From: a virus
IMG/VR virus record: IMGVR_UViG_3300042306_000354
Location: 1-20,043 of that record
Reading direction: 5' to 3' (one strand)
Length of the DNA: 20,043 nucleotides
A model generated the notes under the pieces. That model was not told the origin of the DNA. It saw only the letters and a list, made by a program, of their open reading frames with translations, and did no database searches. The translations under genes and the position numbers were made by a program. Positions 1,974 to 15,442 of this stretch are shown piece by piece; the first letter of the stretch is position 1; every line of letters starts with the position of its first letter.

Positions 1974-3053
1974 ATGTATTCCCTTTCCAACGCTTTCAAG
2001 ACCTTCTCGCCGATACTAATCGAGCCGACGAAGGCCAAGGCTTACCTCGACAAGGTGGCCGAAATCTCCCCCGCCGACATCAAGGGCAACGGGGATATCG
2101 AGGACATGATGGAGATGCTCTTTGGCCCACGTCCGATGCTCGTCAAGAGCGGCGAGCTGGCAATCATCCCCGTCAAGGGAGTCATCGGTTCCGGCCTTAC
2201 GGAACTCGAAAAGATGATGGGCGCGGTCGACGTCGATGACGTCGAAGAGATGTTGGAGGAAGCCGAGCGTGACCCCGGCGTCGAGCATATCATCTTTGAC
2301 TTCGACTCGCCTGGTGGCACGGTCACCGGCGTTCCCGAACTCGCCGAACGCATCCGCAAGTGCAAGAAGCACACCATCGGCTACACCTGCAAGCAGTCCT
2401 GCTCCGCAGCCATGTGGCTGATGAGCCAATGCGATGAGACCTACGCCAGCCCGTCGGCCACCGTCGGCAGCATCGGCGTCTACATTCCGTTCTACGACAT
2501 GAAGGCGGCTTTCGCCGAAGACGGCATCACCGTCGACCTGATCAAGTCAGGCTGGGCCAAGGGAGCTGGTTTCGCCGGCACCTCCCTCACCCCCGAACAG
2601 CGTAAACTCTTCCAAGACGACTGCGACGAGTCCCACGCCTGGTTCATTTCCGACATCCTCAAGGTTCGCACCTACGCCGACCCCATTGATATGCAGGGTC
2701 AATGCTGGACGGGCAAGAAAGCCGCCGAGAAGAACCTCATCTCTGGCCTGATGAACACCCTTGACGATGTCCTGATGGCCATCGACCCCGAGGAATACGC
2801 CATTTACGAACGCGCCGAAAAACAGGTGCCTTCGACCGGCCCCGCCGGCTACGCCCAGGCCGCCGATGTCTCTCCCGAGCAGGGCGAGAAAGACGACGGC
2901 GTCGCTCCGATCTCCGACGACAAGAAGAAGAAAAAGAAGAAAAAGAAGAAGCCCGACGGCACGGACTCGGATGAAGACGAGGACGAGGACGAAGCCGAGA
3001 TTCCTGACGACGGATGCCCCCCTGTGGACACCGACTGCAAGCCCAAGGCTTGA
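1974..3053 (+). CDS. S49-family capsid maturation protease (lambda gpC / SppA-like)
   Basis: This 359-residue serine peptidase probably trims scaffold and capsid proteins during prohead maturation. The SppA/ClpP-like fold is clear: FDFDSPGGTVTG at 108-119 forms the oxyanion region, CSAAMWLMS holds the probable nucleophile Ser144, PSATVGSIGV spans 160-169, and IKSGWAKGAG holds the probable catalytic Lys196. The C-terminus is unusual. Ten consecutive lysines (317-326) are followed by an acidic Asp/Glu run (about 331-341). It starts three bases after the portal stop with no Shine-Dalgarno sequence. Its stop codon lies inside late signal copy 2, so the next transcription unit begins at its very end. 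Unlike lambda C/Nu3, the scaffold here is a separate downstream gene. Confidence 0.9.
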   Translation: MYSLSNAFKTFSPILIEPTKAKAYLDKVAEISPADIKGNGDIEDMMEMLFGPRPMLVKSGELAIIPVKGVIGSGLTELEKMMGAVDVDDVEEMLEEAERDPGVEHIIFDFDSPGGTVTGVPELAERIRKCKKHTIGYTCKQSCSAAMWLMSQCDETYASPSATVGSIGVYIPFYDMKAAFAEDGITVDLIKSGWAKGAGFAGTSLTPEQRKLFQDDCDESHAWFISDILKVRTYADPIDMQGQCWTGKKAAEKNLISGLMNTLDDVLMAIDPEEYAIYERAEKQVPSTGPAGYAQAADVSPEQGEKDDGVAPISDDKKKKKKKKKKPDGTDSDEDEDEDEAEIPDDGCPPVDTDCKPKA

Positions 3054-13650: not shown

Positions 13651-13782
13651 ATGATCCTCGCCATCCTCTCATTCATCGCCGGCCTGATCACGGGTCTGCT
13701 CGTCATGCGGAAGCACTCCGCCAAAGCCTCCGAGCTGGAGGCCAAGGGCAAGGCCGCTCTCGACGCGCTCAAGGGACGCTGA
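13651..13782 (+). CDS. 43-residue single-pass membrane protein
   Basis: This short ORF starts one base after the fibre stop and ends three bases before the lipoprotein gene. Residues 2-19 form one hydrophobic segment (ILAILSFIAGLITGLLVM). Residues 20-43 form a charged, helix-prone Ala/Lys/Glu tail. The tight packing, GC-ending codons in the tail and a good ATG support a real gene. As the first member of the lysis/membrane block it may be a small holin-like or holin-modulating protein; function is inferred from context. No Shine-Dalgarno sequence is seen. Confidence 0.6.
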   Translation: MILAILSFIAGLITGLLVMRKHSAKASELEAKGKAALDALKGR

Positions 13783-13785
13783 CCT

Positions 13786-14523
13786 ATGCGGCTTCTTCTG
13801 GTCATCGCCTGGGTGGCATTGGCTGGTTGCAAGTCGTCCAAGCCAGTAGACGCCCCGCTGCCTAAGCAGCCAGACGCACCGACCAAGCCCGACGCCGTCG
13901 CCACCCTCGGTAAGGACTTGGATAAGACGGATCACCGGGTCGGTGCCGCCCTCGTCGCCATCGAGAAGAACGCCGACAAGCCCAAGGTGGTCGTCGCCGA
14001 GTCTCGCCTAGCTCAGTCTTACCTCCCCCCTCCCCCAGAGGCGGACGTGGCCTTCAGCATGGCTCGCGCAGCCAAGGGTAGCGAAATCGACTACGCCAAG
14101 CAAATGGAGTTCGGACGCAAACTCGCCACCGCCGTCAACAAGGCGTGGGAGAAACTGGAAGCCGACCAAGCCGAAGCCAAGCGCGTCTCCGACCTCAAAG
14201 ATGGCCGTATCAAGGAACTCCAAGCCGAAATCGAACGGGTCAAGAAGGACGCCTCCGCCCAGACTTGGACGCTTGTCGGTGCCGGTCTCGCCGTCATCGG
14301 TGCCCTGACCACCGCCTTCCTCGGCCCGAAAATCGGCATCCCCCTCCTGCTATGCGGGGCGTTCTGCGGATCGGTGCCGTTCATCATCGACAGTCCATAT
14401 TTTGAGTACATTGCCGGGGCCACTTTGCTGATCGCCGCCGGCCTCGGCCTCTGGTGGCTCGCCGACAAGGTACGGGATTCCGTACGCTCTAACGACCATG
14501 ACGAAACGCCGCCAAAAGAGTAA
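13786..14523 (+). CDS. Lipoprotein with coiled coil and three TM segments (spanin-like, putative)
   Basis: This 245-residue protein begins with a lipoprotein signal peptide: a hydrophobic core LLLVIAWVALAG, then Cys15 in the lipobox LAGC, with Lys at +2, which suits outer-membrane sorting. A Pro-rich linker (17-36) is followed by a charged helical region (about 95-155, including RIKELQAEIERVKK), probably a coiled coil. Three hydrophobic segments come next at about 161-180, 183-201 and 208-226, then a hydrophilic tail. An outer-membrane lipid anchor joined to an inner-membrane C-terminus is the layout of unimolecular spanins such as T1 gp11, but those have one C-terminal TM, not three. It lies beside a probable holin. 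Spanin function is inferred. An unrelated membrane lipoprotein remains possible. Confidence 0.55.
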   Translation: MRLLLVIAWVALAGCKSSKPVDAPLPKQPDAPTKPDAVATLGKDLDKTDHRVGAALVAIEKNADKPKVVVAESRLAQSYLPPPPEADVAFSMARAAKGSEIDYAKQMEFGRKLATAVNKAWEKLEADQAEAKRVSDLKDGRIKELQAEIERVKKDASAQTWTLVGAGLAVIGALTTAFLGPKIGIPLLLCGAFCGSVPFIIDSPYFEYIAGATLLIAAGLGLWWLADKVRDSVRSNDHDETPPKE

Positions 14524-14782
14524 GGTCAAGTGGGTCAAGCTCGGTCGCCAGCGAGCCTGGGGTCAGGCTACCATCGGCGAAGGGCTGATTGAAATTGACC
14601 CGCGCCTCGGGGCCAAGCGGCAGTTGGAAGTCCTCTGCCATGAGCAAGTCCACCTGACCTTCCCCGAACTCTCAGAAGCCCAAGTCGACCGCGCTGGCAA
14701 AGACCTCGCCGCCATGCTCTGGGATCAGGACTACCGCCGTGTCCTGCTCGCCCCTAACGCCAAGCCCCCGAAGATTTCGTGA
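14498..14782 (+). CDS. Small HExxH zinc-metallopeptidase-like protein
   Basis: This 94-residue protein has a basic N-terminus, then IGEGLIEIDPRL, and the motif LCHEQVHLTFPELSE with His48, Glu49 and His52 forming a zincin HExxH. Glu60 is a possible third metal ligand. The end (LAAMLWDQDYRRV) matches a helix-turn often seen in small phage and bacterial proteins of this type. The ATG lies inside the lipoprotein gene (26-base overlap), and its stop overlaps the next GTG start, so translation is probably coupled. Sitting in a lysis-type cassette, it could act on peptidoglycan or protein, or be a SprT-like accessory; the motif does not tell these apart. Confidence 0.6.
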   Translation: MTKRRQKSKVKWVKLGRQRAWGQATIGEGLIEIDPRLGAKRQLEVLCHEQVHLTFPELSEAQVDRAGKDLAAMLWDQDYRRVLLAPNAKPPKIS

Positions 14783-15141
14783 GCGCGGCACCTCTCAATC
14801 CCGACGACATCCCTAGGGAGGTCAAGGACGGCGTCGTGGCTGGCGTCCTAGGTGGCCTAGCGATGGTGGCCAGACTTCTCCTCAGTACCGAGCCAGTCTC
14901 GATTGGCTGGGTAATCCGCCGTGTCCTCGCCGCTGCAATCACCGCCGCCTTGGTCGGCTATTGCATCCAAGACCATATTCAAAACGCCGGCCTGAAAATG
15001 GGCGTCGTGGGTGCCAGCGGCTATGCCGCGCCAGAATGTCTGGACTACCTGATGAGGTATATCAAGTCGAAGGGCGACGCCGAGGTAGGCGTCCCGAAAA
15101 AAGATGCCAAAAAAAGACCTGCCTCCAAGCGACGCAAGTGA
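14779..15141 (+). CDS. Holin (LydA / holin superfamily III-like, putative)
   Basis: This 120-residue protein has three hydrophobic segments (about 17-35, 42-62 and 71-90), separated by short polar turns, and a strongly basic C-terminal tail (KKDAKKRPASKRRK). The first segment GVLGGLAMVARLLL, a basic VIRRVL turn, an Ala-rich second segment, and a third with GVVGASGYAAPECLDYL match the pattern of LydA-type phage holins. The start is GTG, sharing GTGA with the previous stop. Holins trigger lysis by forming holes in the inner membrane. The 3' end overlaps the next ORF by 38 bases. Confidence 0.65.
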   Translation: MSAAPLNPDDIPREVKDGVVAGVLGGLAMVARLLLSTEPVSIGWVIRRVLAAAITAALVGYCIQDHIQNAGLKMGVVGASGYAAPECLDYLMRYIKSKGDAEVGVPKKDAKKRPASKRRK

Positions 15142-15442
15142 GAGCAACCTGCTCTTCGCCGTCATCGGCCTGGTCGTCGCCGCCGGCCTCGCCGCAGCCA
15201 TGTCGGCTTGGATCGCAGGCTTCGTCCTAGACCAGCTCCAGAATACGGACGCCCTCGTCATGCTGGTCACCGACGGGGGGCTGAAGTCGGACTCCAAGGA
15301 TTTGGAGCGGAATATGTCCACCGCCACCCTCGCCCTTCAGTCCTGCCGGGACTTGGGCTGGGCTTTGGGCGTAGGCTGTCTGGGGGTCGGGTTGGCAGTA
15401 GTAGTCAGACTACGGAAGAAAACGCCGCCACGGGCTTCCTAG
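15104..15442 (+). CDS. Two-TM membrane protein, unknown function (possible lysis regulator)
   Basis: I do not recognise this 112-residue protein. It has TM segments at about 15-41 (LLFAVIGLVVAAGLAAAMSAW) and 84-102 (LGWALGVGCLGVGLAVVVRL), with about 40 polar residues between and a short basic tail. Its ATG lies inside the holin gene, 38 bases before that gene's stop. As the last gene of the late region, beside a holin, an antiholin or second holin is plausible. The stop codon shares CTAG with the stop of the opposing replication gene. There is no room for a terminator between them. Confidence 0.55.
   Translation: MPKKDLPPSDASESNLLFAVIGLVVAAGLAAAMSAWIAGFVLDQLQNTDALVMLVTDGGLKSDSKDLERNMSTATLALQSCRDLGWALGVGCLGVGLAVVVRLRKKTPPRAS

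Follow-up and report, generated by a model that had tools for sequence, protein, structure and literature searches.

The window, by which we mean the whole stretch of 20,043 nucleotides analyzed here, encodes on its plus strand a protein of 245 amino acids (13786-14523; ATG at 13786, stop codon at 14521-14523), referred to below as the candidate spanin. Its gene lies on the late strand, between tail-fibre and holin-like genes, and belongs to a cassette of small genes whose presence was scored in 118 loci. The features of the cassette and of the protein are as follows.

13651-13782, plus strand: 43-aa single-TM protein, first gene of the cassette (95 of 118 loci)
13786-14523, plus strand: candidate unimolecular spanin, 245 aa (open reading frame and conservation)
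13786-13830, plus strand: lipoprotein signal with lipobox Cys15, Cys codon at 13828-13830 (LAGC; 85 of 85 distinct homologues)
13831-13887, plus strand: proline-rich linker, residues 16-34 (from sequence; length varies between homologues)
13888-14268, plus strand: predicted helical periplasmic domain, residues 35-161 (AlphaFold2, 34-row alignment)
14269-14325, plus strand: predicted TM1, residues 162-180 (hydropathy 1.81)
14332-14388, plus strand: predicted TM2, residues 183-201 (hydropathy 2.15)
14407-14463, plus strand: predicted TM3, residues 208-226 (hydropathy 1.68)
14498-14782, plus strand: 94-aa HExxH protein, metallopeptidase-like (HEQVH motif; 113 of 118 loci)
14779-15141, plus strand: 120-aa holin-like protein (PHROG 6384 holin, E=4.7e-6; 112 of 118 loci)
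15104-15442, plus strand: 112-aa protein with two hydrophobic segments, last gene of the cassette (88 of 118 loci)

The commonest gene order, seen in 71 of the 118 loci, was the 43-aa TM protein, the candidate spanin, the HExxH protein, the holin-like protein, and the 2-TM protein. The 43-aa protein, immediately upstream of the candidate spanin, combines its single TM segment with a short charged helix. The 94-aa HExxH protein, a metallopeptidase-like member of the lysis cassette, matched no family above cut-off, and the 112-aa protein gave no convincing family match. The alignment of the holin-like protein was too variable for scanning; among 40 loci reached through this protein, the candidate spanin was present in all that had sufficient upstream sequence, and no cassette with a different gene in its place was found with this single holin-like query. 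An SLT gene lay within 3 kb of the cassette in nine of the 118 loci, in some relatives as an endolysin candidate directly downstream of it; those in L089 and L184 scored above the Pfam cut-off. SLT-type endolysin candidates stood beside a RuvC-like gene at L083:15719-16246 (minus strand), L184:6869-7297 (plus strand), and L089:8285-8728 (plus strand), the L089 form starting with an apparent export signal.

Within the candidate spanin, a consensus lipobox (L-A-G-C) ends the lipoprotein signal MRLLLVIAWVALAGC (residues 1-15) and is followed, right after the Cys, by the proline-rich stretch KSSKPVDAPLPKQPDAPTKP; beyond it come a periplasmic part of about 145 residues, predicted to be all helical, and the three hydrophobic segments. 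A single scan recovered 220 stretches on viral contigs that encode relatives, and because these number more than 200, the reading frame is not a chance one. A second group of relatives was reached via a 61%-identical relative and via the holin-like gene. Among 85 distinct full-length proteins, with identities down to 29%, the lipobox was present in all 85 and the three segments in 84, the sole exception (L196) having a TM3 under the hydropathy threshold. Protein starts were picked by a lipobox-like pattern, and no full-length sequence was excluded for want of a lipobox: L180, whose start the pattern missed, nevertheless reads LTGC, and the other relatives omitted from the set were truncated by contig ends. 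[GAS]-Cys at the signal end was kept in 85/85 even though signal and linker differ in both sequence and length, and the mature periplasmic part spanned 138 to 150 residues. The most distant member, L220 (29% identity), keeps LAAC and the three segments; a search seeded with it added two further loci only. Conservation of the lipobox and of the three C-terminal segments is thus well beyond chance. The lipobox, the proline-rich linker, and the three C-terminal membrane segments described in the initial annotation were all borne out.

Parts of the candidate spanin are, judging from comparisons among relatives, swapped while the architecture persists. Residues 33-245 of L019 are essentially those of the window protein, with signal and linker replaced by a different lipobox sequence. 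In L188, L194, and L197 the long helix and the C-terminal half nearly match those of L089 or L184 and the periplasmic heads differ, an apparent within-gene module exchange.

Searches beyond these viral contigs gave little. Cultured phage records contained no real relative (best E of 0.9), spanin family profiles gave no significant match (the best being a PHROG Rz-like spanin at E=0.08), and none of the family libraries searched describes the candidate spanin; nor was a description of such a protein found in the open literature searched. A profile search of PDB sequences returned no match. Foldseek matches in a viral library, made with a low-confidence query model, were to A0A6J5MZD0, A0A6J5LR36, and A0A6J5MD62 (53%, 22%, and 22% identity), uncharacterised phage proteins that carry no assigned function. 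None of the homologues found has a known role outside lysis.

An earlier structure model was too poor for fold comparison (pLDDT 56.5), and a second one had no PDB fold match at E<=0.001. The AlphaFold2 model used for the domain reading, built with the 34-row alignment, contains helices only, with pLDDT of about 80 to 91 over residues 41-120 and falling thereafter; the model overall is modest (mean pLDDT 66, pTM 0.38), its membrane part being the least certain (pLDDT of about 50 to 60). In this model, one long helix of modest confidence (residues 100-178) runs into TM1, and over residues 100-157 the hydrophobic periodicity is 3.54 residues (shuffle p of about 0.04). The coiled coil initially proposed for this region draws support, short of proof, from that helix and its period. 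Net charges across the 85 distinct homologues were +1 for loop 1 and -1.8 for loop 2, with a basic tail, and a topology derived from hydropathy and charge, rather than from a trained predictor, would place the lipid end outside and the C terminus in the cytoplasm (N-out/C-in). None of the 85 has an Asp directly after the lipobox Cys, an observation whose bearing on outer-membrane sorting depends on the host's own sorting rules, and none has a Cys between the lipid site and TM1.

Two relative genomes place the gene in a wider context. G001 (36.6 kb), a close relative of the window, is probably complete, given its direct terminal repeat of 127 bp. Scanned in six frames for a simple lipobox pattern, G001, G003 (42.7 kb), and the window each gave one candidate, in every case the candidate spanin gene, and neither G001 nor G003 has a further lipobox ORF in any frame; G002 had one additional weak candidate. 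In G001, about 13 kb separate the cassette from the SLT homologue, which is encoded on the other strand and shares 37% identity with its L184 counterpart. G003 (locus L038) carries the same cassette together with an integrase, with terminase and capsid families unlike those of the window and G001. The cassette therefore behaves as a module, and its distribution suggests exchange between phage types.

Spanins are thought to free phage by fusing the inner and outer membranes. The candidate belongs to the lysis gene set of freshwater viruses of bacteria; known one-protein spanins cross the inner membrane only once. Kongari et al. 2018 (PMC6139136) describe unimolecular spanins (u-spanins) by a lipoprotein signal together with one C-terminal TMD, the periplasmic part being rich in beta structure and free of Cys, and remark that genes for lipoproteins are uncommon in phages. 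Like T1 gp11, the prototype u-spanin, the candidate is a single protein with an N-terminal lipobox, a C-terminal anchor, no periplasmic Cys, and a position in a lysis cassette. It differs from T1 gp11 in having three segments (84 of 85 homologues) instead of one, in its helices-only model versus the beta-rich domain that is typical of, though not required for, u-spanins, and in matching no spanin profile. Because its anchor has three segments and not a single TMD, we class it as a u-spanin variant and not as a plain member. Lambda Rz/Rz1 likewise pairs a proline-rich lipidated outer part with a helical, heptad-like inner part, whereas the candidate is one chain whose anchor is C terminal and multi-pass.

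In our assessment, the 13786-14523 product is likely a unimolecular spanin whose arm is helical and whose anchor crosses the inner membrane three times. The spanin idea, raised in the initial annotation, is well supported by inference from the lipobox, the N-out/C-in charges, the lysis-cassette position, and the fact that G001 has no other lipobox ORF. A lipid-anchored outer end and three inner-membrane passes appear to sit on one chain, and the protein therefore probably helps break or fuse both membranes; we infer that it is lipidated and sorted to the outer membrane, that it has the topology given above, and that it fuses membranes.

The same three segments raise the question of a holin. 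Three is a common TM number among holins, and the C-terminal region gave weak matches to Phage_holin_3_6 (E=0.024 for the window protein, 0.0007 for L192) and to XhlA, families that likewise have a helical segment followed by a hydrophobic C-terminal region. Extra TMDs also occur in the inner-membrane spanins of phiCbK-like phages, for which a link to holin function has been suggested (PMC3556154); these resemble the candidate in having more than one predicted inner-membrane segment but are part of a two-component system, with the additional segments at the N terminus. A hybrid might accordingly be imagined in which the lipid-anchored arm acts as a spanin while the three-TM part takes part in inner-membrane lesions or makes them itself, so that the lysis steps are coupled. 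Every match to a holin-family profile, however, fell below the curated cut-offs, and a separate holin-like gene was present in 112 of 118 loci. The joining of spanin and holin-like parts that the initial annotation thought conceivable is not supported, because that separate gene accompanies the candidate spanin, and we regard such a hybrid as unlikely. It is similarly improbable that one protein both disrupts the outer membrane and contributes to inner-membrane triggering, its three-pass anchor sensing or joining holin lesions. The candidate spanin as a holin outright was rejected, given its sub-threshold matches only and the holin-like gene two genes downstream.

The two small membrane proteins conserved alongside (in 95 and 88 of the 118 loci) could instead make the candidate an unusual o-spanin or i-spanin partnered by the 43-aa TM or the 112-aa 2-TM protein. 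But the candidate itself already combines a lipid site with a membrane anchor, and the small genes are absent or undetected in some loci; the separate lipoprotein gene of a two-component spanin would have to be a second lipobox ORF, which neither G001 nor G003 contains. Pairing with the upstream 43-aa protein is not favoured, since basic residues past its TM suggest a cytoplasmic tail. We therefore hold a two-component arrangement to be very unlikely.

Some phage lipoproteins block superinfection, and the integrase of G003 would suit a non-lysis envelope protein, such as a superinfection-exclusion or envelope-stress lipoprotein, that merely travels with lysis genes. Against this stand the late-strand location between tail-fibre and holin-like genes and the strict cassette linkage across unrelated phage types; moreover, G001 would then have no other lipobox spanin candidate. 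A role of this kind is highly improbable.

If the candidate is a triple-pass unimolecular spanin, its lipid end would sit in the outer membrane, with the proline-rich linker and helical periplasmic domain spanning the periplasm and the long helix continuing into the three-pass inner-membrane anchor, N-out and C-in. Intact peptidoglycan would hold it extended. Once the inner membrane has been opened or depolarised by the holin-like protein and the wall cleared by the SLT endolysin, the candidate spanin might rearrange or cluster and draw both membranes together, leaving the outer membrane disrupted. Published u-spanins have been set apart from two-component spanins by their single pass and beta-rich domain, and the candidate departs on both counts. 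A widespread helical, triple-pass u-spanin, if true, would mean that a helical design is open to single-chain spanins and that the inner-membrane anchor may have a role beyond tethering; were the hybrid reading true, two lysis steps would be physically coupled. The cassette also makes a lysis module recognisable in uncultured freshwater phages, a module unnamed in the family libraries searched.

The pointer to a host is one phage contig that was assigned to an Opitutae MAG; because this contig bears only phage-like genes, a diderm Opitutae host is only suggested. Elsewhere in the window, the gene at 1974-3053 (plus strand) encodes an S49-type head maturation protease with a C-terminal Lys run followed by an Asp/Glu-rich stretch.
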